From assembly GCF_006715045.1 (NCBI RefSeq), contig NZ_VFML01000001.1, forward strand, positions 1,952,501-2,016,500: a DNA stretch of 64,000 bases, in the 5' to 3' direction. Of the stretch, positions 27,558-45,039 are shown piece after piece. The notes beneath the pieces are model-generated. The model was not told where the DNA came from. It ran no database searches and saw nothing but the letters and a program-made list of their open reading frames with translations. The DNA comes from Amycolatopsis cihanbeyliensis (lineage in GTDB: Bacteria > Actinomycetota > Actinomycetes > Mycobacteriales > Pseudonocardiaceae). The stretch's first letter is position 1. Each line of letters starts with the position of its first letter. The translations under genes and the position numbers were made by a program.

Positions 27558-27595
27558 GGCAGCTCCGTCCCTGTGCGTTCGGACGAACGTATTCA

Positions 27596-27608
27596 GTATA
27601 CAGTATGG
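27596..27608. promoter_or_regulatory. Regulon operator A (GntR-type motif)
   Basis: GTATACAGTATGG; reverse complement CCATACTGTATAC. It matches the 13-bp motif found at four other island promoters (NNATACTGYATAC). It lies between the divergent PanE-like gene and the small ORF at 27649 and can serve both. Confidence 0.65.
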
Positions 27609-27648
27609 CACTCTCCGGTCAATGCCGCCGCGCACCGCGGGAGGAACG

Positions 27649-27795
27649 ATGAACGCACTCGCGGAATGGACCTCGGCGGCGTGCTCCGATCTCGACCTCA
27701 CCGAGGAGCCGGACTGCGCGCTGATCGCGGATATCGCGGCGTACCGGCTCACCGCACTGGCCGCACGGCGGCCCGGAATCGACTGGCGCGACTGA
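27649..27795 (+). CDS. Small hypothetical protein, 48 aa
   Basis: A short acidic-helical protein (MNALAEWTSAACSDLDL... ending GIDWRD) with no family I recognise. It is supported by a strong ribosome-binding site (GGGAGGA, 4 nt before ATG 27649), GC-rich third positions and a position between operators A and B. It would be transcribed with the ThDP enzyme downstream, or separately. No membrane or metal-binding feature is visible. It could be a leader peptide or a small accessory protein. Confidence 0.5.
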   Translation: MNALAEWTSAACSDLDLTEEPDCALIADIAAYRLTALAARRPGIDWRD

Positions 27796-27861
27796 AGAAC
27801 CAGCCCGTCGACGATCACCCCTGGACAAGCGGGCAAGGGCGGAGCACTATAAGCACATATC

Positions 27862-27874
27862 GTATGCAGTATTC
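27862..27874. promoter_or_regulatory. Regulon operator B
   Basis: GTATGCAGTATTC; reverse complement GAATACTGCATAC, matching the shared island motif. It lies 35-47 bp upstream of the ThDP-enzyme ATG, inside an AT-rich promoter-like stretch. Confidence 0.65.
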
Positions 27875-27908
27875 GGTAGCCACAATGCGTGAGGAGATGA
27901 GGACGCAC

Positions 27909-29591
27909 ATGGCAGTCGACGGCGAACCAGAGCTGATCTCCGGCGGCCACCTGGTGGCGAAGGCACTGAAGGCCGAGGGCGTCGAGGTCGTCTTCACCCT
28001 CTGTGGCGGGCACATCATCGACATCTACGACGGATGCGTCGATGAGGGCATCGACGTGCTCGACGTACGGCACGAGCAGGTGGCGGCGCACGCGGCCGAC
28101 GGCTACGCGCGGATCACCGGCAAACCGGGCTGCGCCGTGGTCACCGCCGGCCCGGGCACGACCGACGCGGTGACCGGTGTCGCGAACGCGCTGCGCGCGG
28201 AGAGCCCGATGTTGCTGATCGGCGGCCAGGGGGCGTTGACCCAGCACAAGATGGGCTCGCTACAGGATCTGCCGCACGTGGACATGATGAATCCGATCAC
28301 CAAGTTCGCCGCGACCGTGCCGGCGACCGAACGCGTCGCGGACCTCGTCTCGATGGCCTTCCGCGAGTGTTACCACGGCGCGCCCGGGCCCTCCTTCCTG
28401 GAGATCCCGCGGGACGTGCTGGATGCCGAGGTGCCTGCCGCGACGGCACGGGTTCCCGCGGCAGGCCACTATCGCGCTTCCACCCGCAGCGCCGGTGACC
28501 CCGAGGCGATCGAGCGGCTGGCCGATCTTGTGGTGCGGGCGGAGAAGCCGTGCGTGTTGCTGGGCAACCAGGTGTGGACCTGCCGGGCCACCGAGGCGGC
28601 GACCGAGTTCGTCCGCAGGCTCAACGTTCCCGCGTTCATGAACGGGTCCGGGCGCGGCACGCTCGCCCCCGGCGACCCCCACCACCTACAGCTCGCCCGC
28701 AGGTACGCCTTCCAGAACTCGGACCTGATCATCATCATCGGCACCCCCTTCGACTTCCGGATGGGATACGGCCGCAGGCTCTCGGGCGAGGCCACGGTGG
28801 TGCAGATCGACCTCGACTACCGCACGGTGGGCAAGAACCGGGATGTCGACCTGGGCATCGTCGGGGATGCCGGGCTGGTGCTGTCCGCGGTCACCCAGGC
28901 GGCCGGCAGGGTGGACAACGGTGCCGTGGCCCGCAAGGCCTGGCTGGACGAGCTGCGCGGGGTGGAGACCCAGGCGTACGAGAAACGGCTGCCCCGCCAG
29001 CTCTCCGATTCCACCCCGATCGACCCGTACCGGCTGGTGCACGAGATCAACGAGTTCCTCACCCCCGACTCGATCTACATCGGTGACGGCGGGGACATCG
29101 TGACCTTCTCCGGTCAGGTCGTACAGCCGAAGTCGCCGGGACACTGGATGGATCCCGGTCCACTCGGGACACTCGGTGTCGGTGTCCCGTTCGTACTGGC
29201 CGCCAAGTACGCCAGGCCGGAGAAGGAAATCGTCTGCCTGTTCGGCGACGGGGCGTTCAGCCTCACCGGCTGGGACTTCGAGACGCTGGTGCGGTTCGAC
29301 CTGCCGTTCATCGGCATCATCGGGAACAACTCCTCGATGAACCAGATCCGCTACGGCCAGATCCAGAAGTACGGCGAGGGCAGGGGCAGGGTGGGCAACA
29401 CCCTCGGCGACGTCCCCTACGGCGAGTTCGCCCGGATGCTGGGCGGCTACGGCGAGGAGGTGACCGATCCCGCCGGCATCCGGCCCGCGCTGGAACGTGC
29501 CCGCGAGTCCGGCAAACCGTCCCTGATCAACGTCTGGGTCGATCCCGAGGTCTACGCGCCGGGAACGATGAACCAGACCATGTACAAGTAG
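27909..29591 (+). CDS. Thiamine-diphosphate enzyme of the acetolactate synthase / oxalyl-CoA decarboxylase / 2-hydroxyacyl-CoA lyase superfamily
   Basis: A 560-residue enzyme. The N-terminal pyrimidine-binding domain has the catalytic Glu56 (DVRHEQVAAHAADGYAR), a central domain follows, and the C-terminal diphosphate-binding domain has GDG at 446-448 and ...NN about 25 residues on (GIIGNNSSMNQ). It splits or decarboxylates alpha to a carbonyl. The neighbouring family III CoA-transferase points to a CoA-ester substrate such as oxalyl-CoA or a 2-hydroxyacyl-CoA, both of which yield formyl-CoA. The sequence is not a close match to O. formigenes Oxc from memory, so a lyase or carboligase remains possible. 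ATG 27909 was chosen; ATG 27897 and ATG 27885 are in frame. Confidence 0.85.
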   Translation: MAVDGEPELISGGHLVAKALKAEGVEVVFTLCGGHIIDIYDGCVDEGIDVLDVRHEQVAAHAADGYARITGKPGCAVVTAGPGTTDAVTGVANALRAESPMLLIGGQGALTQHKMGSLQDLPHVDMMNPITKFAATVPATERVADLVSMAFRECYHGAPGPSFLEIPRDVLDAEVPAATARVPAAGHYRASTRSAGDPEAIERLADLVVRAEKPCVLLGNQVWTCRATEAATEFVRRLNVPAFMNGSGRGTLAPGDPHHLQLARRYAFQNSDLIIIIGTPFDFRMGYGRRLSGEATVVQIDLDYRTVGKNRDVDLGIVGDAGLVLSAVTQAAGRVDNGAVARKAWLDELRGVETQAYEKRLPRQLSDSTPIDPYRLVHEINEFLTPDSIYIGDGGDIVTFSGQVVQPKSPGHWMDPGPLGTLGVGVPFVLAAKYARPEKEIVCLFGDGAFSLTGWDFETLVRFDLPFIGIIGNNSSMNQIRYGQIQKYGEGRGRVGNTLGDVPYGEFARMLGGYGEEVTDPAGIRPALERARESGKPSLINVWVDPEVYAPGTMNQTMYK

Positions 29592-29612
29592 CGGCCCGAG
29601 AGGAGAACCGCC

Positions 29613-30842
29613 ATGCGAAAAGCGCTCGACGGTGTTCGCGTTCTCGACATGACACATGTCCAGTCCGGGCCGTCCTGCACGCAGATCCTGGCCTGGCTCG
29701 GCGCGGACGTGGTCAAGCTGGAGGCGCCGGCCGGCGACATCACCCGCAAGCAGCTACGTGATCTACCCGATGTGGACAGTCTCTATTTCACGATGCTGAA
29801 CTGCAACAAGCGCAGCATCACGCTGAACATGAAGAGCGACCAGGGTAAGGAACTGTTCACCGACCTGGTCTCCCGGTTCGACATCCTCGCCGAGAACTTC
29901 GGCCCCGGTGCCGTGGACCGGATGGGGTTCGGCTGGGAGCGGCTGCGGGAGATCAACCCGAGACTGATCTACGCCTCGATCAAGGGATTCGGCGAGGGCC
30001 CCTACACCCACTACAAGGCCTACGAGGTGGTGGCGCAGGCAATGGGCGGGTCGATGAGCACCACCGGTTTCGAGGACGGCCCCCCGCTGGCCACCGGGGC
30101 CCAGATCGGTGACTCCGGTACCGGAATCCACACCGTGGCGGGCATCCTCGCGGCGCTGTACCAGCGCGAGCACACCGGCAGGGGCCAGCGGGTGACGGTA
30201 GCCATGCAACACGCGGTGCTGAACCTGTGCCGAGTCAAGCTGCGCGACCAGCAACGGCTCACCCACGGGCCACTCGCGGAGTACCCGAACGACGAGTTCG
30301 GCGACGAGGTCCCCCGTTCCGGCAACGCCTCGGGCGGCGGCCAGCCGGGCTGGGCGGTCAAGTGCGCGCCGGGCGGCCCCAACGACTACATCTACGTCAT
30401 CGTCCAGCCCACGGGCTGGGAGCCGATCAGCAAACTGATCGGCAGGCCGGAACTCGCGGACGACCCGGAGTGGAACACCCCGAAGGCGCGATTGTCCAAG
30501 CTGGACAAGATGTTCCAGATGATCGAGGAGTGGAGCATCGGGCACGGCAAGTGGGAGGTGCTCGCGAAGCTCAACGAGCACAACATCCCGTGCGGTCCGA
30601 TCCTGTCCACGAAGGAGATCATCGAGGACGAGTCGCTGGCCGCGAACGACATGGTCGTGCGTGTCCCGCACCCCGAACGCGGCGACTTCGCCACGGTCGG
30701 ATGCCCGATCAAGCTGTCCGAGTCCTCGGTCGACGTCACCCCCTCACCGCTGCTCGGCGAGCACAACGAGGACGTCTACCTGCGCGAGCTCGGCCTTGCC
30801 CCAGGCCGGATCGCGGAGCTCGAAGCGAATGGAGTGATCTGA
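29613..30842 (+). CDS. Family III CoA-transferase (formyl-CoA:oxalate CoA-transferase-like)
   Basis: A 409-residue protein with the CaiB/BaiF fold. It starts [21 protein letters not shown] and has the catalytic Asp167 in [15 protein letters not shown], the residue that forms the aspartyl-CoA anhydride. Family members move CoA between carboxylates. Being 21 bp behind a formyl-CoA-producing-type ThDP enzyme suggests formyl-CoA as donor and oxalate or a 2-hydroxyacid as acceptor. It has a good ribosome-binding site (GAGAGGAGAA). Specificity cannot be proved from motifs alone. Confidence 0.86.
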
Positions 30843-30845
30843 TCG

Positions 30846-32987
30846 ATGACCGTAGACAGGAACGAGGCCGCCGTACGGGCGACCCTTGACGAGGTCCGCG
30901 CCGAGGGACGGCAGGCGCTGACCGCGCCCGAGGCCAGGCGGGTCTGCGACGCCTACGGCATCACCACCCCTGCCGAGGGTCTGGCCACCACGGCGGCGGA
31001 GGCGGCGAGCCTGGCTGAGGAGATCGGCGGGCCGGTGGTCTGCAAGATCGTGTCACCGCAGATCCTGCACAAGACCGAGGCCGGTGGCGTACTCGTCGGC
31101 GTCGAGGGTGCGGCAGCGGCACGGGAGGCGTTCGAGACGATCGTGGCGAACGCCACGCACTACGACTCCTCCGCCACGATCACCGGCGTCCAGGTGCAGC
31201 GGTTGCTCGCCGGTGGCCAGGAGGTCATCATCGGCGCCACCACCGATCCGACCTTCGGTAAGGTCATGGTCTTCGGGCTCGGCGGCGTGCTGGTCGAAGT
31301 ACTCAAGGACGTCACCTTCCGGCTCGCCCCGCTCCAGCGGGCGGAGGCTCGGGCCATGGTCGAGGACATCGAAGCCGCCGAGGTCCTGCGTGGAGCCCGC
31401 GGTGCCGATCCGGTCGACCTTGACGCGCTGGCCGAGATGGTCCGCACGGTGTCGGAACTGGTCACCGACTTCCCGGAGATCAGCGAGATCGACCTGAACC
31501 CGGTGTTCGCCACCGCGGGCGGCGCGAGCGCGGCTGATGTCCGGATCCTGGTCGAGACCGGTGAGGTGACCCGGCCGGTGCGCCACCCGCGGGAGGAGAT
31601 CCTGCGGGTGATGGACCGGATGATGAACCCCCGCTCGGTCGCCGTCATCGGGGCCTCCGCGGAGGAGGGCAAGATCGGCAACTCGGTGCTGAAGAACCTG
31701 ATCAACGGCGGGTACGCGGGCGAGATCTACCCGATCAACCCCAAGGCCGACGACATTCTCGGCCGCAAGGCCTACCCCTCCATCACCGACGTGCCCGGTG
31801 AGGTGGACGTGGCCGTGTTCGCCGTGCCGGCGAAGTTCGTGCCGGACACCCTGGAGGCCTGCGGGCGGAAGGGGGTGCCGGCCGCGGTGCTGATCCCCTC
31901 CGGGTTCGCCGAGACCGGCAACGTGGAGTTGCAGAACACGGTGGTGGAAATCGCCCGACGGAACGGAGTCAGGCTGCTCGGCCCGAACATCTACGGCTAC
32001 TACTACACGCCGCGGAACCTGTGCGCGACCTTTTGCACGCCATACGACGTGCGTGGCGGGGTGGCGCTGACCTCACAGAGCGGCGGCATCGGGATGGCGA
32101 TCCTCGGCTTCAGCCGGACCACCAAGATGGGCGTCTCGGCCATCGTCGGGCTCGGCAACAAGTCCGATGTGGATGAGGATGATCTGCTGACCTACTTCGA
32201 GCAGGACGAGAACACCCAGTGCGTGGCCATGCACCTCGAGGACCTCAAGGACGGCAGGGCCTTCGTCGACGCGGCCAAGCGGATGACGAAGAAGAAGCCG
32301 GTGGTGGTGCTCAAGGCCGGCCGCACGGCGATGGGCGCGCGGGCGGCCGGCTCGCACACGGGCGCGCTGGCCGGCGACGACAAGGTGTACGACGACGTGC
32401 TGCGCCAGGCCGGGGTGGTCCGCGCGCCCGGCCTGCACGAGATGCTCGAGTACGCCAGGGGCCTGCCGATACTGCCCACCCCGCAGGGAGAGAACGTCGT
32501 GATCATCACCGGCGCGGGCGGCTCGGGGGTACTGCTCTCCGACGCCTGCGTGGACAACGGACTGTCCTTGATGGATATACCGCCGGATCTCGACGAGTCG
32601 TTCCGGCGCTTCATCCCGCCATTCGGTGCGGCCGGTAACCCGATCGACATCACCGGCGGGGAGCCACCCTCGACCTACGAGGCGACGATCCGGCTCGGCC
32701 TGGAGGATCCGCGGATCCATGCCCTGATCCTCGGGTACTGGCACACGATCGTCACCCCGCCGATGGTGTTCGCGGAGTTGACCGCCAGGGTGGTCGGGGA
32801 GGCGAGGGCACAGGGAGTCGACAAGCCGGTCGTCGCCTCGCTCGCCGGTGACACCGAGGTGGAGAAGGCCTGCGAGTACCTGTTCGATCACCGGATCGTG
32901 GCCTACCCGTACACCACGGAGCGGCCGGTGGCCGTGCTCGGCGCGAAGTACCGGTGGGCCCGCTCCGCCGGGCTGCTCGGCCGCTGA
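30846..32987 (+). CDS. ADP-forming acyl-CoA ligase (fused beta-alpha acetate-CoA ligase type)
   Basis: A 713-residue protein. The N-terminal ~230 residues are an ATP-grasp domain (GPVVCKIVSPQILHKTEAGGV). A CoA-binding Rossmann domain (NPRSVAVIGASAEEGKIGNS) and succinyl-CoA-ligase-like domains follow, with the phosphorylated His504 in GSHTGALAGDDKVYDD. It interconverts acyl-CoA + ADP + Pi with acid + CoA + ATP, so it could conserve energy from formyl-CoA or activate the substrate. It begins 3 bp after the CoA-transferase stop and belongs to the same operon. The domain order (ATP-grasp first) is the reverse of the Pat/AcdA type. Confidence 0.87.
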   Translation: MTVDRNEAAVRATLDEVRAEGRQALTAPEARRVCDAYGITTPAEGLATTAAEAASLAEEIGGPVVCKIVSPQILHKTEAGGVLVGVEGAAAAREAFETIVANATHYDSSATITGVQVQRLLAGGQEVIIGATTDPTFGKVMVFGLGGVLVEVLKDVTFRLAPLQRAEARAMVEDIEAAEVLRGARGADPVDLDALAEMVRTVSELVTDFPEISEIDLNPVFATAGGASAADVRILVETGEVTRPVRHPREEILRVMDRMMNPRSVAVIGASAEEGKIGNSVLKNLINGGYAGEIYPINPKADDILGRKAYPSITDVPGEVDVAVFAVPAKFVPDTLEACGRKGVPAAVLIPSGFAETGNVELQNTVVEIARRNGVRLLGPNIYGYYYTPRNLCATFCTPYDVRGGVALTSQSGGIGMAILGFSRTTKMGVSAIVGLGNKSDVDEDDLLTYFEQDENTQCVAMHLEDLKDGRAFVDAAKRMTKKKPVVVLKAGRTAMGARAAGSHTGALAGDDKVYDDVLRQAGVVRAPGLHEMLEYARGLPILPTPQGENVVIITGAGGSGVLLSDACVDNGLSLMDIPPDLDESFRRFIPPFGAAGNPIDITGGEPPSTYEATIRLGLEDPRIHALILGYWHTIVTPPMVFAELTARVVGEARAQGVDKPVVASLAGDTEVEKACEYLFDHRIVAYPYTTERPVAVLGAKYRWARSAGLLGR

Positions 32988-33087
32988 ACCGGCGGGCCCA
33001 GGGGCGGTCTCCTCACCGATCAGGAAGAAACGCGAAACGTAGGGATCCCCACGCGAAACGGCATGAGTCCTACGATCAGGAGGTCCA

Positions 33088-34635
33088 ATGGTGGATTCCT
33101 CGAACGCCCCTGCCGCGGGCTCGTCCAGACGTGACTCCGGGCATGACTCCGGAAATGACACGGCCACCGAGGTGGCGTCCGGCACGGACGAGTCCGCACG
33201 GGTGTGGCGAGCGGGCCGGCTCGACCCGATGCCCATCCGCAAACTGCCCGAGGCTCCGCCCGCCATCCACCTGCTCGGCCCGACGGTCTTCCTGGTCGCG
33301 CTGGGCGTGGGAATGGGCGAATCCTACATGTGGCCGAGACTCGTGCTGGTCTTCGGTCCCGAGATCCGGTGGCTGTTCCTCGTCGGCGTGACCCTCCAGG
33401 CCTTCGTGATGCTGGAGATGGCGCGCTACGCGATGGCCACCGGGGAGAGCATCTTCACCGGCGCGGCGAGGGTGTTCAAACCGATCATGTGGTTCTTCTT
33501 CGTGGTGGCGATACTGGTCTATATCTGGCCGGGTCACCTGTCCGCTGGAGCCGCCGCGCTGGAGGAGATCACCGGCATACCGTGGGTGGTCAGCGCCTGC
33601 GTGGGGCTGGTGCTGGTCGGCATCGTCTTCAGCCTTGCCAGGGTGATCTACAACCTGCTGGAGAACGTGCTGTCCGTCCTGATCGGGACACTCGTCGTCG
33701 GTACCGCGGTCGTCGCCTCCCTTGTCGGTAGCTGGGGCGACCTGGCGAGCACCCTGAGCGGGATGTTCCACTTCGGGTACTTTCCCGCCGAGGCGATGTC
33801 CGGCGCGTGGTTCCCGATCCTGGTCGGCTCGGTCGCCTTCGCCGGCCCCTCCGGTATGCAACAGATGTGGTACACGCTGCACCTGCGGGACAGTGGTGCC
33901 GGCATGGGCGCGCACATCCCCCGAGTGCGTGGGTTGCGGCACGCGGGTGAGGAAGAGGCGATGCCCTCCCGTGGCTTCATGTTCGACACCGGTGACCCGA
34001 AGGAGATGACCAAGTGGCGGGGCTGGCGCCGCTGGGTCACCTTCGACGCGCTGCTGCTGTTCTGGGGTATCACGATGCTGGTGACGGTCTCGTTCACCGT
34101 GCTCGCCCAGGCGGCGAACCGGGAGAACCCGAACGTCAAGGCGCTGATCGAGGGCGGCGACCGGGATGCCGCGCTGGGCGCGATGTCGGACGCGTTCGCC
34201 TCGGTCGGCGGCCCGGTGCTCGGCGGGGTGTTCTTCGGGTTCATCGCACTGATCGGGGTCAACGCCACGCTCGGGTTGTTCGACTCGTTCTCCCGCGGGC
34301 AGGCGGACATGACGTACTTCTTCGTGCCCGGCGCCCGCAAGTTCAAGATGTCGCACCTCTACGCCGGGTTCCTCTGGGGTGTGATCGTCTTCGGCATCCT
34401 GATCCTGCTGTTCGGGCCCGCCGAAGGACCGAGCAGCGTGCTGGACATCCTGGCGTTCCTCTCCACTTTCGCGATGGGCGCGTACTGCGTCGTGCTGCTG
34501 CTGGTGAACAACCGCATGTTGCCGAAACCGATCCGGCCGAGATGGTGGGCCAACGTGATCATCGGCTTCGGCGCGTTGTTCTACCTCGGCATGCTGTTCT
34601 ACAGCCTGATCCGCTTCGGCGTCGTGGTGAGTTGA
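33088..34635 (+). CDS. Nramp-related transporter lacking the metal-binding motif
   Basis: A 515-residue protein with a ~60-residue hydrophilic N-terminus and about 11 membrane helices of the Nramp/LeuT fold. In true Nramp proteins helix 1 carries DPGN and helix 6 MPH, both metal ligands. Here helix 1 reads LVALGVGMGESYMWPRL and the helix-6 region reads FAGPSGMQQMWYTLHLRD, so neither is present. I therefore doubt manganese or iron transport. Its position behind the CoA-ligase gene suggests uptake of the organic acid or of Mg2+ (inference). ATG 33088 has an AGGAGG ribosome-binding site. The 100-bp gap upstream may hold a secondary promoter. Confidence 0.8.
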   Translation: MVDSSNAPAAGSSRRDSGHDSGNDTATEVASGTDESARVWRAGRLDPMPIRKLPEAPPAIHLLGPTVFLVALGVGMGESYMWPRLVLVFGPEIRWLFLVGVTLQAFVMLEMARYAMATGESIFTGAARVFKPIMWFFFVVAILVYIWPGHLSAGAAALEEITGIPWVVSACVGLVLVGIVFSLARVIYNLLENVLSVLIGTLVVGTAVVASLVGSWGDLASTLSGMFHFGYFPAEAMSGAWFPILVGSVAFAGPSGMQQMWYTLHLRDSGAGMGAHIPRVRGLRHAGEEEAMPSRGFMFDTGDPKEMTKWRGWRRWVTFDALLLFWGITMLVTVSFTVLAQAANRENPNVKALIEGGDRDAALGAMSDAFASVGGPVLGGVFFGFIALIGVNATLGLFDSFSRGQADMTYFFVPGARKFKMSHLYAGFLWGVIVFGILILLFGPAEGPSSVLDILAFLSTFAMGAYCVVLLLVNNRMLPKPIRPRWWANVIIGFGALFYLGMLFYSLIRFGVVVS

Positions 34636-34636
34636 C

Positions 34637-35173
34637 ATGGCTGTGCACCGCACCCGGCTACGCCGGAACGCCGAGCTCGCACTTCCGGGTGGCACCGTCG
34701 GTCTCGTCGCCGGCGCCGCGGCCGGTGGGCTGGCCGCACTCGTCGGCCAGCCCGCCGGGTGGGCGCTGGTCACCGCGCTCTCGCTCGGCATCCCGCTCGC
34801 GCTGCTCGGCGGGGGCTACGGGTTGCTGATCGCCTACGGCCGGGTCCGGCTCGGCGGTTTCGCCCCTGTCGCGCTGTTCTGGCTGGTGGGGTTCCCGCTG
34901 GCCAGGCTCACGCACGAAGCGTTGACGCACCTCGTGCTGACCGGACGACCAGCGCTACCGCCCGACCTGCTCGGTTTCCTCGCCTATCAAGGCCTGGTGA
35001 GTGCCGGGTTCGCGATCGGGTTCCTGTGGCTGCACGAACGGATCGCGCCCCGGTGGTGGTTGCGAATCGCTCGACACAACCCGTATGCCGAGCGGATTCT
35101 GGCCGCCTACGCCGCGCATGCCTCAGCGCTGCGCAACGCGAAACAGGCCCGGCGGCGTACGAAGGTGTCCTGA
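34637..35173 (+). CDS. Small integral membrane protein, unknown function
   Basis: A 178-residue protein with about four hydrophobic helices (GTVGLVAGAAAGGLAALVG; ALVTALSLGIPLALLGGGYGLLI; APVALFWLVGFPLARL; YQGLVSAGFAIGFLWLHERI) and a basic C-terminal tail. The ATG follows the stop of the Nramp-like gene after one base, so the two are translationally coupled. It is probably a partner subunit of that carrier. No family was recognised. Confidence 0.72.
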   Translation: MAVHRTRLRRNAELALPGGTVGLVAGAAAGGLAALVGQPAGWALVTALSLGIPLALLGGGYGLLIAYGRVRLGGFAPVALFWLVGFPLARLTHEALTHLVLTGRPALPPDLLGFLAYQGLVSAGFAIGFLWLHERIAPRWWLRIARHNPYAERILAAYAAHASALRNAKQARRRTKVS

Positions 35174-35251
35174 CCACCTGCCCACCGTCATCTCCTCACC
35201 ACGCCCCGTCCCGCGTCGGGCGCGTGCTGACCCGACCCTGCCGAGGTGAGC

Positions 35252-36229
35252 ATGAACGTTCCCGTCTGGCTGTGGCTGGCCACGATCGCCGGCCTGTGCG
35301 GCATCATCGGTTTCGACTTCTACCTGGTCTCCCGGAAACCGCGGGAGCCGTCGATGCGGGAGTGCACCGCGTGGGTGTGCGGCTACGTGAGCCTGGCCAT
35401 CCTGTTCGGACTCGGCGTGCTGCTCACCGCCGGAGCACAGCGTGGCGGCGAGTTCTTCGCCGGCTGGATCACGGAGTACTCGCTGTCGGTGGACAACCTG
35501 TTCGTGTTCGTCATCATCATGAGTACCTTCGCGGTGCCCCGGATGTACCGGCAGCAGGTGTTGTTGATCGGCATCGTGCTGGCCCTGGTGATGCGCGGCG
35601 CCTTCATCGCCGTGGGCGCGCAGGCGATCGCGCGGTTCGAATGGCTCTTCTATCTTTTCGGCGCTTTCCTCATCTATACCGCGTGGAAACTGCTGCGGCA
35701 CAAGGACTCCGAGGACGACGAGTTCTCGGAGAACGCCGTACTCCGCACCGTCAAGCGGGTGCTACCCGCGACCGAGACCTACCACGGCACCTCGCTGGTC
35801 ACGAAGCTGAGCGGGCGCCGCGTGGTGACCCCGATGCTGATCGTGATGGTGGCGATCGGCACCACAGACCTGCTGTTCGCGCTCGACTCCATTCCGGCGA
35901 TCTTCGGCCTCACCAAGGAGCCCTACCTGGTCTTCACCGCGAACGCCTTCGCGTTGATGGGCCTTCGGCAACTGTTCTTCCTGATCGGCGGGCTGCTGGA
36001 TCGGCTGGTGTACCTCAGCATCGGCCTGGCCGTGGTACTCGGCTTCATCGGCGTCAAGCTGATCCTCGAAGCGCTGCACCACGATGGTGTCGGCTGGGCA
36101 CCGGAGATCCCGATCCTCGGCTCGTTGGCCGTGATCGTCGGCACTCTCGCCGTCACCACCGTGGCGAGCCTGGTGAAGGGCAGGCTCGAGCGCGGCCGCA
36201 TGAGGGATCAGGACGATGCGGTCGTGTGA
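35252..36229 (+). CDS. TerC/Alx family membrane protein (probable Mn2+ exporter)
   Basis: A 325-residue protein with about nine helices. The family signatures are both present: EYSLSVDNLFVFVII and GTTDLLFALDSIPAIFGLT, whose acidic residues bind metal. TerC/Alx proteins export manganese or load exported metalloenzymes. ATG 35252 was chosen because GAGGTG lies just upstream; GTG 35246 is in frame. I see no yybP-ykoY riboswitch in the 78-bp gap before it. It may relate to metal balance during growth on a metal-chelating acid such as oxalate (speculative). Confidence 0.87.
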   Translation: MNVPVWLWLATIAGLCGIIGFDFYLVSRKPREPSMRECTAWVCGYVSLAILFGLGVLLTAGAQRGGEFFAGWITEYSLSVDNLFVFVIIMSTFAVPRMYRQQVLLIGIVLALVMRGAFIAVGAQAIARFEWLFYLFGAFLIYTAWKLLRHKDSEDDEFSENAVLRTVKRVLPATETYHGTSLVTKLSGRRVVTPMLIVMVAIGTTDLLFALDSIPAIFGLTKEPYLVFTANAFALMGLRQLFFLIGGLLDRLVYLSIGLAVVLGFIGVKLILEALHHDGVGWAPEIPILGSLAVIVGTLAVTTVASLVKGRLERGRMRDQDDAVV

Positions 36230-36405
36230 AAGCCACCGCGTGTCTCGCGGGCCCGCTTGCGCAGGAACTCCTCGACATCCACCGTGGGGTTCCGCCGCTG
36301 CCGTTCCAGCGCGGTGGCGAGGCCGAGGCCGAGCCTTCTGCCGTCGGCACTGGTACCCCGCGGCGTGCTGGTCAGCCAGGCACGGAACTCGTTCCAGGTA
36401 CGCAT
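36208..36405 (-). CDS. Small conserved-looking hypothetical protein, 65 aa
   Basis: A short soluble protein starting MRTWNEFRAWLTSTP and ending GGFHTTASS, rich in Arg and Trp at the start. It is preceded by a near-perfect ribosome-binding site (GGGAGGTGA, 6 nt before the ATG) and has GC-biased codons, so it is likely expressed. Its 3' end overlaps terC by 22 bp on the opposite strand. The function is unknown. The 102-bp repeat R1 lies 54 bp upstream of its start. Confidence 0.62.
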   Translation of the reverse strand: MRTWNEFRAWLTSTPRGTSADGRRLGLGLATALERQRRNPTVDVEEFLRKRARETRGGFHTTASS

Positions 36406-36458
36406 TCGCTGTCACCTCCCTTTCCTTCGGGACAACCCTGTTCAGCACAACATCGGGA

Positions 36459-36560
36459 GGGCTGTTCAGAACGACCCAGCGACCGCGGGCCGCCAGGCCC
36501 GTGCGAGCGGTCGTCGCAGGCCACAGCGCTGGCGAATCATACCGCGAATCTGCACAGCCC
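36459..36560 (+). repeat. 102-bp structured repeat, copy R1
   Basis: Terminal arms GGGCTGTTCAG (36459-36469) and CTGCACAGCCC (36550-36560) pair 10 of 11. An inner stem CGACCGC/GCGGTCG encloses GGGCC/GGCCC. The segment 36470-36524 matches copy R2 (41244-41345) at 52 of 55 positions, with identical total length. It is intergenic, between gntR and the small ORF. Confidence 0.7.
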
Positions 36561-36626
36561 GACTATTGAATAAGACACCGGGTAGCCGCGCGCCGCCACT
36601 CGGCGCCGGCGAAAATAGCGGAAAAC

Positions 36627-37370
36627 TTACACCCGCGGGCCGGTTCGCCTGCGCCGGGTACGGACCTGCGTCGGCTGCTCCCCTGCGGCACGGTTCTCCC
36701 GCTGCTCGAGGTAGGACTGCCGGGTTCGCTCGGTATGCTCGCGCATGACCTGGGCCGCGGCCTCGGTGTCACCCCGCTCGATGGCGTCGACCAGCTTCTC
36801 GTGCTCTTCCCAGGACGTCTGACCGCGATGGCGGGCGATCGGCGTGTAGTACCAGCGCACCCGGCGGTCGACCTGATTCACGAAGTCGATCAGAACCCCG
36901 TTGCCGGACAGTTCGGTGACCGCCCGGTGCAGCTCGGCGTTGGCCGCGACCATGGAATCGACGTCGTCGGCGGCCACCGCGGCCTCGCCCCGGGAACAGA
37001 TCTCCTTCAACAGCCGTACGCCTTCGGAACCCGCCTGCTGCGCCGCCAGGCGCGCCGACTCGCCTTCGAGTACCGAACGCACGGCCAGCAGCTCGTCGAC
37101 CTCGGCGTCCGTGGGTGCGTGGACGAAAGCCCCGTACCCGGGGCTCAGGTCCACCCAGCCCTCGGAGTTCAGCAACTGCAGGGCCTCACGGATCGGCTGG
37201 CGTGACACACCCAGCCTCTCCGCCAGCTCGCTCTCCACCAGATGCTGCCCCGGGGCGAGTTGACGAGAAATGATCATCTCTTGCATCGCCTGGTAGACAC
37301 GCTCGCGCAGGGGCGCCGGCCGATTGATCCTGTGTGCCGACATATCCTGTGGCAACTCACTCGGGGGCAT
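36627..37370 (-). CDS. GntR-family (FCD) transcriptional regulator
   Basis: A 247-residue protein. The N-terminal winged helix has LRERVYQAMQEMIISRQLAPGQHLVESELAERLGVSRQPIREAL (shown here only as a landmark at residues ~20-63). The C-terminal FCD helical domain contains ELHRAVTELSGNGVLIDF and HEKLVDAIERGDTEAA, with the metal/ligand-binding Asp/His pattern. Such regulators respond to small organic acids. I chose ATG 37370 (GGAG upstream) because the longer frame to 37466 would cover operator E. Located at the centre of the region with five copies of one operator, it is the obvious candidate regulator. Confidence 0.88.
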   Translation of the reverse strand: MPPSELPQDMSAHRINRPAPLRERVYQAMQEMIISRQLAPGQHLVESELAERLGVSRQPIREALQLLNSEGWVDLSPGYGAFVHAPTDAEVDELLAVRSVLEGESARLAAQQAGSEGVRLLKEICSRGEAAVAADDVDSMVAANAELHRAVTELSGNGVLIDFVNQVDRRVRWYYTPIARHRGQTSWEEHEKLVDAIERGDTEAAAQVMREHTERTRQSYLEQRENRAAGEQPTQVRTRRRRTGPRV

Positions 37371-37442
37371 TGCGAACTCCAAGAACTCGCGGCGGAACCC
37401 GGCTGGTCCGGGAACAAAGTCCAGCCGACCACGACGTCGACT

Positions 37443-37455
37443 GACTACAGCATAC
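37443..37455. promoter_or_regulatory. Regulon operator E (weak), gntR promoter
   Basis: GACTACAGCATAC matches the island motif NNATACTGYATAC at 9 of the 11 defined positions. It lies about 75 bp upstream of the gntR start, consistent with autoregulation. Confidence 0.4.
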
Positions 37456-37544
37456 AATGAACTCAATGTACGGAATGTGCACTTCGGGTGATGTCTACCA
37501 CTCCCCGTAGTTGTTCACCCGTTCCGGGCATCCCCGGTGGACCT

Positions 37545-37557
37545 CCATACTGCATAC
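37545..37557. promoter_or_regulatory. Regulon operator C, sucC promoter
   Basis: CCATACTGCATAC, a full match to the island motif, ends 17 bp before the sucC ATG. It is followed by the near-palindrome TACACT-CA-AGTGTA (37562-37575) that runs into the start codon. No clear ribosome-binding site is visible, so translation may use a very short leader. Confidence 0.62.
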
Positions 37558-37574
37558 AGTCTACACTCAAGTGT

Positions 37575-38912
37575 ATGGACCTCTACGAGTACCAGGCGAA
37601 GGATCTCTTCGCTGCCCATGGAGTGCCGGTGTTGCCGGGTTCTGTGGCGGAATCTGCCGAGCAGGCGCGGGTCGTGGCCGAGGGGATCGGTGGCCCGGTG
37701 GTGGTGAAGGCGCAGGTGAAGACCGGTGGTCGGGGTAAGGCCGGTGGGGTGAGGTTGGCTGCGGATGCGGTGGAGGCCGAGGCGAAGGCCGCGGCGATTC
37801 TGGGGATGGATATCAAGGGGCACAGGGTGCGTCGGGTGTTGGTGGCCGCGGCTTCGGAGATCGCGGAGGAGTATTACTTTTCGTTCTTGTTGGATCGGGC
37901 GAATCGGACGTTTTTGGCGATGGCCTCGGCTGAGGGTGGGGTGGAGATCGAGCAGTTGGCTGTGGAGCGTCCGGAGGCGTTGGCGCGGGTGCCGGTGGAT
38001 CCGCTGAGGGGGGTGGACGGGGATCGTGCGCGGGAGATCGTGCGGCGGGCGCGGTTCCCGGAGGCGGTGGTTGAGGAGGCCGCGGGGGTGGTGGTGCGGC
38101 TGTGGGAGACGTTTGTGGCGGAGGATGCCACGTTGGTGGAGGTGAATCCGCTGGTGCGGGATCCGGAGGATCGGGTGATCGCGCTGGATGGCAAGGTCAC
38201 GGTGGATGACAATGCCGCGTTCCGTCAGCCCGGGCATGCGGGGTTGGTGGATGAGCGGGCGGAGGATCCGTTGGAGGCCAGGGCCAAGGCCAAGGATTTG
38301 AACTATGTGAAGTTGGAGGGGCAGGTCGGCATTATCGGTAATGGTGCCGGGTTGGTGATGTCCACGTTGGATGTGGTGGCGTATGCGGGGCAGCGGTATG
38401 GGGGTGTGGCGCCGGCGAACTTCCTGGACATCGGGGGTGGCGCCTCGGCGGAGGTGATGGCCGCGGGTCTGGATGTGGTGTTGCATGATCCGGATGTGCG
38501 GTCGGTGTTTGTGAACGTGTTCGGTGGGATCACCGCGTGTGACGCGGTCGCGACGGGGATCGTGGAAGCCCTGAAGATCCTCGGGGACGACACGGCCACG
38601 CACACGGCCGGAGCCGAGTCGGCCGCAGCAACCCGCGGCGCGCGCTCCCGGCCGGAGGCCTCGCGAGCCCGGCTGCGGGCCGCAAACCTACCCGAGGCGC
38701 CGAGCGTTCACCAGGACACGGCCCGTAGACGGGATCGTCGACCGCGCGCTGGTGGACCGCAGTCGAAACCGCTGGTGGTGCGGCTGGATGGCAACAATGT
38801 CGAGCAGGGTCGGCGGATCCTGGCCGAGGCGGCGCACCCGCTGGTCACGGTGGTGGACACGATGGACAATGCGGCGGACAAGGCCGCCGAGCTGGCAGCG
38901 GCAGGAGCCTGA
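37575..38912 (+). CDS. sucC: Succinate-CoA ligase (ADP-forming) beta subunit with 57-residue insertion
   Basis: A 445-residue protein. The ATP-grasp start [30 protein letters not shown], and the C-terminal [17 protein letters not shown] and [16 protein letters not shown] identify SucC. A typical SucC has 388 residues. Here residues 340-396 are an extra Arg/Ala/Pro-rich stretch with no family similarity, and removing it restores 388. The codon use is odd for this window: many TTG, GAT, GGT and GGG codons, in contrast to C-ending sucD. Partner SucD starts 5 bp later. This copy sits in the regulon, so it probably handles an acyl-CoA other than, or in addition to, TCA-cycle succinyl-CoA. Confidence 0.9.
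38592..38762 (+). other. In-frame 171-bp insertion within sucC
   Basis: It adds 57 codons between ILGDD and SKPLVVRL. The encoded segment is low-complexity and basic (contains [13 protein letters not shown] and [13 protein letters not shown]), likely a disordered surface loop. Base composition is more C-rich than the flanking sucC sequence. No terminal repeats or splicing motifs are visible. Confidence 0.7.
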
Positions 38913-38917
38913 ACACC

Positions 38918-39826
38918 ATGGCGATTTTTCTCAACAGTGACAGCAAGGTGATCGTGCAGGGCCTGACCGGCTCGGAGGGGATGAAGCACGCCACCAAGAT
39001 GCTGGCCTCCGGCACCACGATCGTGGGTGGGGTCAACGCCCGCAAGGCCGGGCAGAGCGTCACCGTCAACGACCGGGACCTGACGGTGTACGGCACGGTG
39101 GCCGAGGCCATGACCGCCACCGGCGCCGACGTCAGCGTGATCTTCGTGCCCCCGACGTTCGCCAAGGACGCGGTGATCGAGGCCATCGACGCCGGCATCG
39201 GCCTGGCCGTGGTGATCACCGAGGGCATCCCGGTGCACGACGCGGCCGCCTTCTGGGCCCACGCCGTCGCCACCGGCAACACCACCCGCATCATCGGCCC
39301 CAACTGCCCCGGGATCATCTCCCCCGGCCAGTCCAACGCCGGCATCATCCCCGCCGACATCACCGACACCGGCCGCATCGGCCTGGTGTCCAAGTCCGGC
39401 ACCCTGACCTACCAGATGATGTACGAACTGCGGGACATCGGGTTCTCCACCGCCATCGGCATCGGCGGCGACCCCATCATCGGCACCACCCACATCGACG
39501 CCCTGGCCGCCTTCGAGGACGACCCCGACACCGACGTCATCGTCATGATCGGCGAGATCGGCGGCGACGCCGAAGAACGCGCAGCCGACTACATCCACCA
39601 CCACATCAGCAAACCCGTCGTGGGCTACGTCGCCGGCTTCACCGCCCCCGAAGGCAAAACCATGGGCCACGCCGGCGCCATCGTCTCCGGCTCCAGCGGC
39701 ACCGCCCACGCCAAAAAACAAGCCCTCGAAACCGCCGGCGTCAAAGTCGGCAAAACACCCACCGAAACCGCCGAACACGCCCGCGAACTGATGGCCGAGA
39801 CCCCTCGCCCACACGGTGGCCACTAG
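38918..39826 (+). CDS. sucD: Succinate-CoA ligase alpha subunit
   Basis: A 302-residue protein that binds CoA and carries the phosphohistidine. It shows [32 protein letters not shown], and the catalytic His251 in [14 protein letters not shown]. Length is normal. It starts 5 bp after sucC. Third codon positions are almost all C in the distal half, opposite to sucC. It forms the alpha-beta enzyme with SucC. Confidence 0.94.
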
Positions 39827-39941
39827 GTATATCCGGGAACGGCCACCGGGACAGCCCGGATTGCTACGCGGCGCGCCGGCCAAGAGACTGGGAGACGTGT
39901 CCCGGGAGATCCCCGGACCGTGGTGGCGCGAAGGAGCGGCG

Positions 39942-41114: not shown

Positions 41115-41430
41115 CGCGGGATGGGGAGCATGCCTGCTCCCTGCCACTTTCAATATATAGCGCACTGGGGGACTTGTGGCAAGCCCCGGTCGTACCGCAG
41201 AATCACCGGCCGAAGCCAGAACCCGCGGAAACGGTTTCCTCGAGGGTTATTCAGAACGGCCCAGCGACCGCGGGCCGCCAGACCCGTGCGAGCGGTCGTT
41301 GCAGGCCACCGCACTGACGAGGCGAATTGCAGACCTGAATAACCCGACCGCAGAATAAGGCACCTCGTGGTCCGCGCGGGACTCGGCATAGGTGGACGAC
41401 AAATTTCAGTTTAAACGCCGTGAGGGGAAT
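41115..41430. other. 316-bp intergenic region between the aminotransferase and helD-like genes
   Basis: It contains an AT-rich patch (AATATATAG, ~41153) that may be promoter DNA, the repeat R2 (41244-41345), and the helD ribosome-binding site. No gene is supported. Confidence 0.5.
41244..41345 (+). repeat. 102-bp structured repeat, copy R2
   Basis: Terminal arms GGGTTATTCAG (41244-41254) and CTGAATAACCC (41335-41345) are perfectly complementary. Relative to copy R1, several arm positions changed on both sides while pairing was kept. The inner stem CGACCGC/GCGGTCG is identical to R1. It has the same orientation and exactly the same length as R1. Confidence 0.72.
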
Positions 41431-43668
41431 GTGTCTACTCAGGGGTACGACGATGAATTGCGGTCCGAGCGGAGCTACGTGGCCGGGCTCTACGCGCGAC
41501 TCGACGCCGAGCGCGCGCGAGTGAGGGGCGAGTACAAGGCGGCACTGCGGGGAAACGGCGAGACACCCATGGAACGGGACGTCCGGGTGCGTGCGCTGGC
41601 CACGGAGGCGCGGCGGCTGGACGTCGTGGACAACGGGCTGTGTTTCGGCCGGTTGGACACCGTTTCGGGCGAACATTCGTATATCGGCCGGATCGGCCTT
41701 TTCGACGAGGAGAACGAGTACGAACCGGTGTTGCTCGACTGGCGGGCACCGGCCGCGCGGGGGTTCTACGTCGCCACCGCCGCGACACCGGAGAACATGC
41801 GCAGGCGCCGTCAGTTCCACACCCGCGGGCGCCAGGTGGTCGATTTCACCGACGAGGTGCTCGGCCGACCCGGCGGCGACGATCGGGGGGACGCGGCGCT
41901 GCTCGCGGCGGTCAACGCGCCGCGCGGTGACGGGATGCGCGACATCGTGGCGACGATCCAGGCCGAGCAGGACGAGATCATCCGGCTCGATCACCCAGGG
42001 GTCCTGGTGGTCGAGGGTGGCCCGGGTACGGGGAAGACCGTGGTGGCGCTGCACCGCGTCGCGTACCTGCTCTACACGCACCGGGAGCGGATGGAACGTC
42101 ATGGCGTGCTCGTGGTCGGGCCCAACCCGGCGTTCCTGAACCACATCGGCCGCGTACTGCCGTCGCTGGGTGAGTCCGACGTGGTGTTCATGACCACCGG
42201 CGACCTGGTGCCCGGCCTGCGCGTCACCGCGGAGGACCCCCCGGAAGCAGCGCGGCTCAAGGGTTCGCTGAAGATGCTCGACGTGCTCGCGGCGGCGGTC
42301 GCCGACCGGCAGCGGCTGCCGGAGTATCCGCTGCCCATCGAGCTGGCGGACGTCACGGTCCGGATCGACGCCGAGACCGCCGAATGGGCCAGGGAGGAAG
42401 CGCGCGCGAGCGGGCTGCCGCACAACGAGGCCCGCGCGGTGTTCGGTGAGATCGTCACGTGGGTGCTCACCGAACGGGCGATAGGCCGGATCGGCCGGGG
42501 CTGGCTGACCCGGGAGGACCGCGAAGCATGGGAGGAGCTGCGGGCGGACCTGCTCGAGGAGCTCGCGGAGGACGACATGTTCGCCGCGGCGCTCGACGAG
42601 CTCTGGCCGATACTGACGCCGGAGGCGCTGCTGGCGTCGCTGTACTCCTCCCCCGACCGGCTACGGGCGGCCGGAGCCGACCAGTCGTTGTCGCGGGCAC
42701 GCGGCGACGCCTGGACGGTATCGGACATACCGCTGCTCGACGAGCTGGTCGACCTGCTGGGCCGCGACAAGTCGGCCGACCGGGCCGCCGAGCGGGCCCT
42801 CGAGCGGGAACGGAAGACCGAGGCCGAGTACGCCGCCGGCGTGATGGACCTGCTCGTCGACCGCAAGGACTCGATGGACGACGAGGACCACCTGTTCGCC
42901 ACGGACCTGCTCTTCGGCGAGGACCTGGCCGACCGGTTCGGCGAGCGCGACACCCGTGAACTCGTCGAGCGCGCCGCCGCGGACCGGGACTGGACCTACC
43001 GGCACGTCGTGGTCGACGAGGCCCAAGAGCTGTCCGAGATGGACTGGCGGGTGCTGATGCGGCGCTGCCCCGGCCGATCCTTCACGGTGGTCGGCGACCT
43101 CGCCCAACGCCGGTCGGCGGCCGGAGCGACATCGTGGGACACGATGCTGGAGCCGTACGTGCCGGGCCGTTGGGTCTACCGGTCGCTGTCGGTGAACTAC
43201 CGCACCCCGGCGGAGATCATGAGCGTCGCCGCCGCGCTGCTCGCCGAGTTCACACCCGCGGTCCAGCCACCGGAGTCGGTCCGCGCGTGCGGCGTCCGGC
43301 CATGGTCCAGGCGGGTCACCGAGGACGAGCTGCCCGCTGCCGTCGAGGAGTTCGTACGGGACGAAGCCACACGCGAAGGCACCAGCGTCGTGATCGGGCC
43401 ACCGGGTATGCCGGGCGGGATGGCGACTGTGCCGCCCTCGGAGACGAAGGGCCTGGAGTTCGACTCCGTCCTGGTCGTGGAACCGGCGAGGATCCTCGCC
43501 GGCGGCCCGCGCGGCGCGGCCGAACTCTACGTCGCCCTCACCCGCGCCACCCAGCGGCTCGGCGTCCTGCACCACGGCCCATTGCCGCGGCCCCTGACCG
43601 GACTCGCCGATATCGGGACACCCACGAGGCAGGAACAACCGCTCACCCGCGGCCTACCCCGCGGGTGA
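41431..43668 (+). CDS. helD: HelD-like RNA polymerase-associated helicase (UvrD/Rep superfamily)
   Basis: A 745-residue protein. The N-terminal coiled-coil arm (ELRSERSYVAGLYARLDAERARV) is followed by the GRIGLFDEENEYEPVLLDWRAPAA segment typical of HelD. Walker A GGPGTGKT is at 196-203, and the Walker B line is VVVDEAQELSEMDW. Motif V/VI sequences are TKGLEFDSVLVVEP and YVALTRATQRLGVL. Actinobacterial HelD frees stalled RNA polymerase and can protect from rifamycins. GTG 41431 follows GAGGGG closely; GTG 41392 is the alternative. The stop overlaps the convergent MFS gene by 15 bp. Confidence 0.87.
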   Translation: MSTQGYDDELRSERSYVAGLYARLDAERARVRGEYKAALRGNGETPMERDVRVRALATEARRLDVVDNGLCFGRLDTVSGEHSYIGRIGLFDEENEYEPVLLDWRAPAARGFYVATAATPENMRRRRQFHTRGRQVVDFTDEVLGRPGGDDRGDAALLAAVNAPRGDGMRDIVATIQAEQDEIIRLDHPGVLVVEGGPGTGKTVVALHRVAYLLYTHRERMERHGVLVVGPNPAFLNHIGRVLPSLGESDVVFMTTGDLVPGLRVTAEDPPEAARLKGSLKMLDVLAAAVADRQRLPEYPLPIELADVTVRIDAETAEWAREEARASGLPHNEARAVFGEIVTWVLTERAIGRIGRGWLTREDREAWEELRADLLEELAEDDMFAAALDELWPILTPEALLASLYSSPDRLRAAGADQSLSRARGDAWTVSDIPLLDELVDLLGRDKSADRAAERALERERKTEAEYAAGVMDLLVDRKDSMDDEDHLFATDLLFGEDLADRFGERDTRELVERAAADRDWTYRHVVVDEAQELSEMDWRVLMRRCPGRSFTVVGDLAQRRSAAGATSWDTMLEPYVPGRWVYRSLSVNYRTPAEIMSVAAALLAEFTPAVQPPESVRACGVRPWSRRVTEDELPAAVEEFVRDEATREGTSVVIGPPGMPGGMATVPPSETKGLEFDSVLVVEPARILAGGPRGAAELYVALTRATQRLGVLHHGPLPRPLTGLADIGTPTRQEQPLTRGLPRG

Positions 43669-45009
43669 CGGAGGCAGCAACGTCGGCATCCCCGGGCGGC
43701 GGAGCGTGCGAACCAGCGCCGCGCCCGCAAGGCTCAGCACGGCCACGATGGGAAAGGCCAACGTCGGCCCCACCGGATCCGCGAAGATCATCGCCAAGCC
43801 GATACCCACCAACCCGCCGGAGGCCTTCGCGCCGTAGAACAGGCTGAAGATGGGTAGCCCTGGATGTTCGCCGAAATGCGCTTCGGCCAGGCCGGGCAGG
43901 ACCGCGTAGCACGTGCCCGCACTCGCTCCCGCGACGAACGCACCGGCCAGCAGCAGCCACCACAGGCCATGCAGGCCGGCGAACAGCAACACCAGTTGGG
44001 CCACGGCCCCCGCCGCGAGCGCGCGCCGAACCAGCCGCGCCCGGCCGAGCCGCTCCCCCGCCCATCCCGCGGCCAGCCGCGCGAGCCCGCTCGCCCCGGC
44101 CAGCGCCCCGACGGCGGCGGCCGCTATCGGTAGCCCCGCGTGGTCCCGCGTGGCCAGCAAGGCCAGGTAGGCCAGATCGAAAAGGGAGACCGATGCGGTG
44201 CACGCCACCGCGAGGTAGAGCAGGGCCGACACCCGGGTCCGCAGCACCTCGCGGGGGGTGTACCGGCGCACGGCGGGTTTGTTGTTCCGCAAGCCGGGGT
44301 TGACCGATTTGTCGACCGCCCACAGTCGCGGGTCGATGTGCGCGGGCCACCAGCCGTCCGGCGGATCACGGAGCACGGCGGCGGCCGCACCGGCCACCAG
44401 CAGCACCGCTGTCCCGGACAGCACGAGCAGCAGATCGACCCCGCCCGCACCGACGAGCCAACCCGCCACCACCAGGAACGGAATCGAGCCGTATGCGAAA
44501 GCCCCGCTCACGAACGAGGTCCGCGCCGGTCGCTCCGGGTACCACTTCGCGACGACGCCCAACGCCGTCCCGTAGATCAGCCCGGCCCCGAGCCCACCGA
44601 GCACGGCATGGCTCAGCACGGCCACCAGAAAACCACCCGAGGCGCCGAGCGTGATCAGGCCGTTCGCGGTGAGCACCGCGCCCGCGGCCATCGGCACCAC
44701 CGGAGCCAACCGCAGCCGGTGCCGCAGCCTGGCCACGGGATACACGGTGAGGCTCTGGCAGCAGGTCCAGATCGCGAGCACGGACAACGCGTGGGTGACC
44801 GTCCAACCGTGCCGGTCGCCGAGCACCGGAACCAGCGCACCGTAGCCGTACTGCCCGAGACTCGCCACCAGCATCGCGGCCCACGCCGCCCACAGCATCC
44901 AGCGCCGGGACTTCCCGAGCAGCTCCCGGTCGCTCACGCCGACGCGATGCCGCCTGCCGTAGAAGTCGCGCACCTCATGCGGGACGGAAGGAGAACTCGA
45001 CCCACGCAT
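43654..45009 (-). CDS. MFS transporter, OFA (oxalate/formate antiporter) type
   Basis: A 451-residue protein with 12 predicted helices and a large cytosolic loop. It begins with a hydrophilic segment (RVGVSDRELLGKSRRWMLW). Signatures of the OFA group are GAGLIYGTALGVVAKWYPER, the loop DPPDGWWP...VDKSVNPGLRNNKPAVR, and TPREVLRT. OFA carriers exchange organic anions such as oxalate and formate. ATG 45009 is preceded by GGGAG. Operator D lies 18-30 bp upstream, tying the carrier to the catabolic genes. Substrate assignment rests on family and context. Confidence 0.83.
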   Translation of the reverse strand: MRGSSSPSVPHEVRDFYGRRHRVGVSDRELLGKSRRWMLWAAWAAMLVASLGQYGYGALVPVLGDRHGWTVTHALSVLAIWTCCQSLTVYPVARLRHRLRLAPVVPMAAGAVLTANGLITLGASGGFLVAVLSHAVLGGLGAGLIYGTALGVVAKWYPERPARTSFVSGAFAYGSIPFLVVAGWLVGAGGVDLLLVLSGTAVLLVAGAAAAVLRDPPDGWWPAHIDPRLWAVDKSVNPGLRNNKPAVRRYTPREVLRTRVSALLYLAVACTASVSLFDLAYLALLATRDHAGLPIAAAAVGALAGASGLARLAAGWAGERLGRARLVRRALAAGAVAQLVLLFAGLHGLWWLLLAGAFVAGASAGTCYAVLPGLAEAHFGEHPGLPIFSLFYGAKASGGLVGIGLAMIFADPVGPTLAFPIVAVLSLAGAALVRTLRRPGMPTLLPPSPAG

Positions 45010-45026
45010 AAGAGCTCCCGTAGTTC

Positions 45027-45039
45027 GTATACTGTATTC
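45027..45039. promoter_or_regulatory. Regulon operator D, MFS promoter
   Basis: GTATACTGTATTC matches NNATACTGYATAC at 10 of the 11 defined positions. A further GTATAC half-site lies at 45048-45053. The segment sits in an AT-rich promoter region. Confidence 0.58.

Follow-up and report, generated by a model that had tools for sequence, protein, structure and literature searches.

Introduction

Local regulators of the GntR/FCD type, such as LldR, PdhR and GlcC, lie beside the catabolic genes that they control and act on palindromic operators in promoters, including the promoter of the regulator's own gene. We analyzed a 64-kb stretch of the Amycolatopsis cihanbeyliensis genome (contig NZ_VFML01000001.1, positions 1,952,501 to 2,016,500; hereafter the window) in which a regulator with the same two domains lies beside genes resembling oxalate catabolism, and in which five operators had been predicted. 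It differs from the described regulators in its apparent targets, an oxalate-type set that includes a second sucCD.

The catabolic genes also have described counterparts. As in the Frc/Oxc region of Escherichia coli (yfdXWUVE), a CoA-transferase stands beside a thiamine diphosphate (ThDP) enzyme of the same superfamily, whereas the cluster here adds a PanE-like reductase, an ADP-forming acyl-CoA synthetase-like protein (ACD), SucCD and an MFS carrier, and its ThDP enzyme shares 25% identity with E. coli Oxc, whose presumed active-site residues it lacks. The nearest solved sequence to that enzyme, over 539 residues, is an actinobacterial 2-hydroxyacyl-CoA lyase (7pt1-7pt4), from which it differs in having isoleucine at a glutamate position that varies among those entries, and in being encoded beside a canonical formyl-CoA:oxalate CoA-transferase (FRC). 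In the accessible parts of PMC8411744 and PMC12686821, a PanE-type oxalyl-CoA reductase (PanE2) is described for Methylobacterium extorquens; the likeness to our reductase is one of PanE family only, and activity on oxalyl-CoA is here a conjecture.

We conclude that the five sites are probably the operators of one autoregulated local regulon, in which the GntR/FCD protein would repress five transcription units for oxalate-type catabolism. On the sequence evidence, the circuit is very probably real and self-regulated, and its type is a familiar one. For oxalate-type catabolism in actinomycetes, the result offers a candidate regulator, a candidate operator and a set of candidate targets, and it helps to place a GntR protein and a ThDP enzyme that have had no assigned role. 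The interest lies more in the sucCD pair and the ThDP enzyme than in the regulon itself.

Five predicted operators around a GntR/FCD gene

The original prediction described five near-identical 13-bp sites upstream of the panE-like, ThDP, sucC, MFS and gntR genes, and we confirmed each sequence at its predicted coordinates. Near-identity applies to four of them, which share an exact ATACTGYAT (panE-like, ThDP, sucC and MFS promoters); the fifth, in the gntR promoter (37443-37455), is a variant with one mismatch to the centre-neutral pattern ATACWGYATAC. The conserved element is longer than 13 bp, being a TACNGNATACWGYATNCNGTA-like palindrome that spans ~21 bp, and several promoters contain a second overlapping operator register 7 bp away. 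Scores in the following list come from a matrix of relatives' sites, built from 71 distinct sites in 12 loci (L051-L062) and 20 further loci (L077-L096) with the window excluded.

27592..27612, minus strand: operator of the panE-like gene (core 27596-27608; 21.5 bits, and 22.1 bits in a second register centred on 27595)
27858..27878, minus strand: operator of the ThDP gene (core 27862-27874; 32.6 bits)
36627..37370, minus strand: GntR/FCD regulator, proposed binder of the five sites on the strength of its Pfam domains and co-occurrence with the motif
37439..37459, plus strand: variant operator of gntR (core 37443-37455; 14.6 bits), near-invariant among relatives
37541..37561, plus strand: operator of sucC (core 37545-37557; 23.7 bits)
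45023..45043, plus strand: operator of the MFS gene (core 45027-45039; 26.0 bits)

Such sites had been called improbable by chance, and the numbers agree. The pattern VNATACTGYATNB matches four times in the window against 0.03 expected, and four matches were reached in none of 100 shuffles. Because this pattern was derived from the sites themselves, independent tests were added. The relatives' matrix places all of its top scores at the five places (32.6, 26.0, 23.7, 22.1 and 14.6 bits, each place being counted in its best register); nowhere else in the window does the score exceed 5.1 bits. Twenty simulated first-order Markov sequences reached at most 13.1 bits, so that the gntR site would be marginal taken alone.

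We initially doubted the gntR site as noise, and dropped that doubt given its conservation. In 11 of 12 non-Streptomyces loci (L051-L061, not L062), the sequence GACTGNCTACAGCATACARTG or one near it is found 32-90 bp upstream of gntR, and a similar site precedes gntR in L077-L081, L084 and L088. The site had been described as the weaker of the five, and it does score lowest, but it is a conserved variant. Conservation of a low-scoring site in the promoter of the regulator gene itself is consistent with autoregulation, and this operator may be one of low affinity.

The 7.4-Mb genome contains four copies of ATACTGYATAC, of which three are within the stretch of the window that holds the sites, and the reversed control pattern is absent. 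The looser ATACWGYAT occupies 10 distinct places, four of them within this 17-kb stretch; its 13 strand matches genome-wide do not exceed the 15 of its reversed control, and the evidence therefore lies in placement and not in total count. Of the remaining six places, three fall inside a long open reading frame (ORF; L009-L011), one lies directly before eccD, one is beside a tRNA-like stretch (judged by eye) and one, at C1:3102299, is truly intergenic. The possibility of hits scattered over the genome was addressed with a profile of 62 of the 71 relatives' sites, for which 150 of 361 first-look candidates were scored at a threshold of E<=10. Four of its five matches, all with weak E-values (0.13-1.04), are the panE, ThDP, sucC and MFS operators, and the fifth lies at C1:3102294; the gntR variant is not among these matches at that threshold. 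Chance occurrence of AT-rich sites was rejected on the basis of the relatives' matrix, the genome scan and the conservation described below.

Conservation of the operators with their genes

In 41 related loci (two duplicates dropped), we counted sites scoring above 12 bits on a leave-one-out matrix and lying no more than 250 bp upstream of a gene. Such a site precedes the ThDP gene in 35/35 cases, panE in 28/28, sucC in 22/22, gntR in 33/41, the MFS gene in 17/24 (a count that includes MFS paralogues) and the aldehyde dehydrogenase (ALDH) gene in 1/5; three of the 33 gntR sites are more than 200 bp away and may serve a neighbouring gene. No site precedes the operon-internal genes for FRC (0/37), ACD (0/36), the Nramp-like protein (0/25), a hypothetical protein, hyp178 (0/25), TerC (0/21) or SucD (0/17). 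Altogether, 31 of 741 kb hold 125 of the 146 sites. Gene order varies among the relatives, with sucC beside the MFS gene or panE beside gntR, and the site stays with its gene. This comparison of promoters in orthologous clusters strongly supports the placement of five units under one motif.

Eighteen loci from two other families (f19 and f21) were also compared. The ThDP site is present in all five f19 loci that have an FRC-linked ThDP gene with upstream DNA (L214, L216, L217, L219, L231), and the f19 panE and sucC/MFS promoters likewise carry sites; in f21 loci the sites are weaker, variant or absent. Several points count against our interpretation here. The loci are related by descent, so the counts are not independent events; three of the 18 other-family loci (L218, L220, L223) have no site above 15 bits; and L225, which has ThDP-FRC-ACD, likewise shows none, although its sequence ends about 180 bp past the ThDP gene.

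Between the panE and ThDP operators lies a possible 48-aa ORF (27649-27795) that has no Pfam match. The distance separating these operators differs among relatives, at 90 bp in one group and 350-470 bp in another.

The regulator and its association with the motif

The protein encoded at 36627-37370 contains both a GntR winged helix (PF00392, 70.5 bits; cut-off 27) and an FCD domain (PF07729, 108 bits; cut-off 24.3). Three FCD histidines, which we take to be metal ligands, align by eye with histidine at all three places in 7xp0. The protein falls far below every named NCBIfam model, the best being phnR_burk (114 bits; cut-off 271.5).

Orthologues were defined at E<=1e-60 (at least 53% identity, the next tier being at most 39%), a cut set in the gap after the data had been seen. 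By this definition, 61 of 150 family genomes have the regulator, and ATACTGYATAC occurs in 53 of these 61 against 6 of the 89 others, a co-occurrence that links the motif with this regulator. The 11-mer has 141 matches across the family, 88 of them within 25 kb of gntR; the reversed pattern has 19 matches in the same genomes. At class level, 40 of 394 genomes have a GntR match at E<=1e-60, the source genome counted. From this association we infer that the GntR protein binds the five operators.

In the accessible parts of the open-access literature searched, leaving out PMC5987411, the one paper found to combine oxalate, GntR and formyl-CoA transferase, we saw no actinomycete GntR protein described as regulating oxalate genes, nor this operator sequence for any GntR protein.

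Catabolic genes and the likely substrate

25020..26561, minus strand: aldehyde dehydrogenase family protein, 21 bp after panE and probably in the same operon
26583..27557, minus strand: reductase matching the PanE/ApbA fold family, possibly an oxalyl-CoA reductase
27909..29591, plus strand: ThDP enzyme of the superfamily of 2-hydroxyacyl-CoA lyases and oxalyl-CoA decarboxylases (HACL/OXC), by family matches
29613..30842, plus strand: FRC (TIGR03253, 673.6 bits; cut-off 504.2)
30846..32987, plus strand: ACD, below equivalog cut-offs
33088..36229, plus strand: Nramp-like transporter, small protein and TerC/Alx-like protein, neighbours kept in many relatives and, from their order, possibly the end of the ThDP operon
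37575..39826, plus strand: sucC and sucD, a second genomic copy near-identical to C1:3155131-3156299 and onward
43654..45009, minus strand: MFS carrier, weakly OFA/lactate-transporter-like, below cut-offs

We propose that a GntR/FCD dimer would bind the ~21-bp palindrome and so repress five units, namely gntR, panE-like(-ALDH), ThDP-frc-ACD(-Nramp-TerC), sucCD and the MFS gene. Bound protein would block RNA polymerase, with its operator over the panE -10 element and elsewhere close to the start, until the FCD domain bound an effector and the repressor was released; the effector would be a small acid or the CoA ester of one, with oxalate or one of its products the likeliest. The enzymes would then import the acid and load it with CoA via FRC, with SucCD or ACD as the CoA source; the ThDP enzyme would split the CoA-loaded acid, and the PanE-like protein would reduce part of it.

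FRC is canonical and 58% identical to E. coli Frc. Section 3.2 of PMC10192776, among the accessible parts of that paper, lists the Frc residues Q17, Q/W48, D169, G259 and G260; in alignment with E. coli Frc, our protein has Q17, Q47, D167 and GGG at 241-243, with equivalence to the Oxalobacter formigenes numbering deduced. Its gene directly follows that of the ThDP enzyme, which falls well short of the OXC model TIGR03254, at 228 bits against a cut-off of 739.4 that no gene reached in a search of the whole genome. The enzyme retains OXC E56 and has L, Q, I and N in place of the presumed OXC residues Y120, E121, Y483 and S553; these were read from an alignment with E. coli Oxc at 25% identity, in which the equivalence of numbering is likewise deduced. 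It may therefore be a divergent oxalyl-CoA decarboxylase or belong to a different pathway.

Alternatively, the regulon may be real and its substrate an acid other than oxalate, with a ThDP enzyme of 2-hydroxyacyl-CoA lyase type serving to degrade another short acid. The shortfall on the OXC model, the replaced residues and the lack of any gene above the OXC cut-off point in this direction, as does the closest solved relative, the 2-hydroxyacyl-CoA lyase 7pt3 (269.1 bits). So does the carrier, which the original prediction had named as OFA-type and which reaches 92.3 bits on TIGR00890 against a cut-off of 374.85, a resemblance too weak for membership. However, the next solved entry, 8vzc, is an oxalyl-CoA decarboxylase by name and trails by a small margin (261.7 bits), and our enzyme has isoleucine in place of the variable, presumably catalytic glutamate of the 7pt1-type entries. 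The canonical FRC directly after the ThDP gene and the precedent of PanE2 also favor oxalate, and we regard a different substrate as unlikely, if worth keeping in view.

Promoter geometry and the direction of control

At one of the promoters, the operator overlaps a sigma-70 match.

27595..27622, minus strand: panE promoter, TTGACC-16-TATACT, with its -10 element inside the operator

This is the only sigma-70 match in the panE region (0.1 expected), and TTGAC(C/G)-16-TATACT recurs in 16 of 32 selected panE promoters (the window and 15 of 31 relatives), one more having TTGACT. Repression is likely because the operator covers the panE -10 element, and occlusion would be its simplest form. Two observations weigh on the other side, namely that the strict promoter is found in no more than 16 of the 32 cases and that none of the four remaining operators gave a sigma-70 match in the promoter scan.

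The latter result would also suit a regulator that activates, or both activates and represses, at these operators, since four of the five have no -35 match, as in activated promoters, and the accessible parts of PMC11323563 discuss such a double role for a regulator of the IclR type. Against activation stand the covered panE -10 element and the position of the MFS operator, which in related loci lies 6-48 bp upstream of the start codon, downstream of the usual activator positions. We consider activation, alone or combined with repression, improbable and retain repression as the simpler account. At the sucC promoter, TANNNT follows immediately 3' of the operator in the window and in 4 of the 12 relatives shown. 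A terminator-like hairpin (37421-37444, minus strand) lies in the gntR leader just downstream of the gntR operator and may be due to chance.

A further question is whether this GntR protein, and not a different DNA-binding protein, reads the sites. The exact 11-mer is absent from eight genomes that have the regulator, and G103, a 90%-complete draft, has ThDP and panE operators with no GntR match. In addition, Streptomyces orthologues with a near-identical helix-turn-helix and no frc nearby have no site above 12.4 bits near gntR. These cases count against binding by the GntR protein, and the first two would be expected if another protein were responsible; yet the motif tracks gntR across genomes and adjoins it, and a variant site is kept before gntR itself, making a different reader very unlikely in our estimation. 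That the elements are mere AT-rich core promoters of co-expressed genes is scarcely credible despite the perfect TATACT within the panE site, given that the element is palindromic with conserved arms outside the -10, its distance to the start codon varies widely, and the motif is rare in genomes without this GntR.

A second copy of sucCD with unrelated upstream DNA

Over the coding region 37576-39789, the window copy of sucCD is 99.7-99.9% identical to the other genomic copy, whereas the upstream DNA is unrelated. The window sucC has an in-frame insert of 168 bp (~38597-38764) that the other copy lacks, and some 110 bp of this insert resembles repeats dispersed elsewhere in the genome (79% identity). 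Two copies that are 98.2-100% identical over ~2.05 kb are also found in G014, G041, G106, G077 and G044, so that pairs 98-100% identical within a genome occur in 6 of 8 genomes compared; the pair in G115 is 84% identical, and for G086 no alignment was reported. In a tree of ~1 kb of sucC, the copies pair by genome in 8/8 (support 83/84 for G041, the others starred or identical).

Gene conversion apparently keeps the two copies alike, and is the simplest account of these sequences because the position within the cluster is shared between species. Of 12 genomes queried, four gave no sucC match at E<=1e-60, and five loci (L053, L055-L058) end in or just before sucC, gaps of the kind that collapsed repeats would cause. 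No gene conversion of sucCD was reported in the accessible parts of the open-access literature searched.

More tentatively, the regulon may hold a private sucCD copy under oxalate-type control as a source of succinyl-CoA for priming CoA transfer, with conversion leaving in effect only the promoter different (we assume which copy is the housekeeping one), and with a non-canonical ThDP enzyme in place of oxalyl-CoA decarboxylase. We hold this combination to be possible and somewhat doubtful. If true, sucCD would offer a clear-cut natural example in which a central enzyme was duplicated to gain a second promoter, its coding part being kept uniform.

Operator-like sites away from the cluster

Among the 141 family matches, 45 are in genomes with gntR but far from that gene, and eight are in genomes without the GntR protein. 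We examined 40 of the 45 and six of the eight. A wide regulon was rejected, many of the examined matches being inside predicted ORFs or having no recurring neighbour. The exception is a gene for an aldehyde dehydrogenase resembling succinate-semialdehyde dehydrogenase (SSADH), found just downstream of a site in eight genomes with five genus labels.

L110, L111, L118, L122, L127, L133, L134 and L137: SSADH-like loci of the eight genomes, away from the cluster

The SSADH-like assignment was made by family scan in G060, G115, G027 and G148, all below equivalog cut-offs, and by position and tblastn in G035, G132, G141 and G114. The gene is not a target in the source genome, because the closest homologues there, among the best matches, are 31-37% identical.

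The source genome has a sixth strong operator-like site (C1:3102294-3102310; L018:4991-5011), which scores 27.5 bits on the relatives' matrix. On one side of it is a gene for a BMP-type lipoprotein and on the other an sdhCDAB-like operon, no further Sdh_cyt locus having been found; no counterpart was seen among the relatives' sites examined. TerC genes have a nearby site in two genomes (L107, L108). In a single case, L103:3937 of G081, an operator lies at the start of a gene for a TupA-like tungstate-binding protein beside a MoeA-type gene, a neighbourhood that fits tungsten- or molybdenum-dependent formate oxidation. Within the window itself, 41392-43668 encodes a HelD/HelR-type RNA polymerase recycling factor (1447 bits; NCBIfam cut-off 1051).

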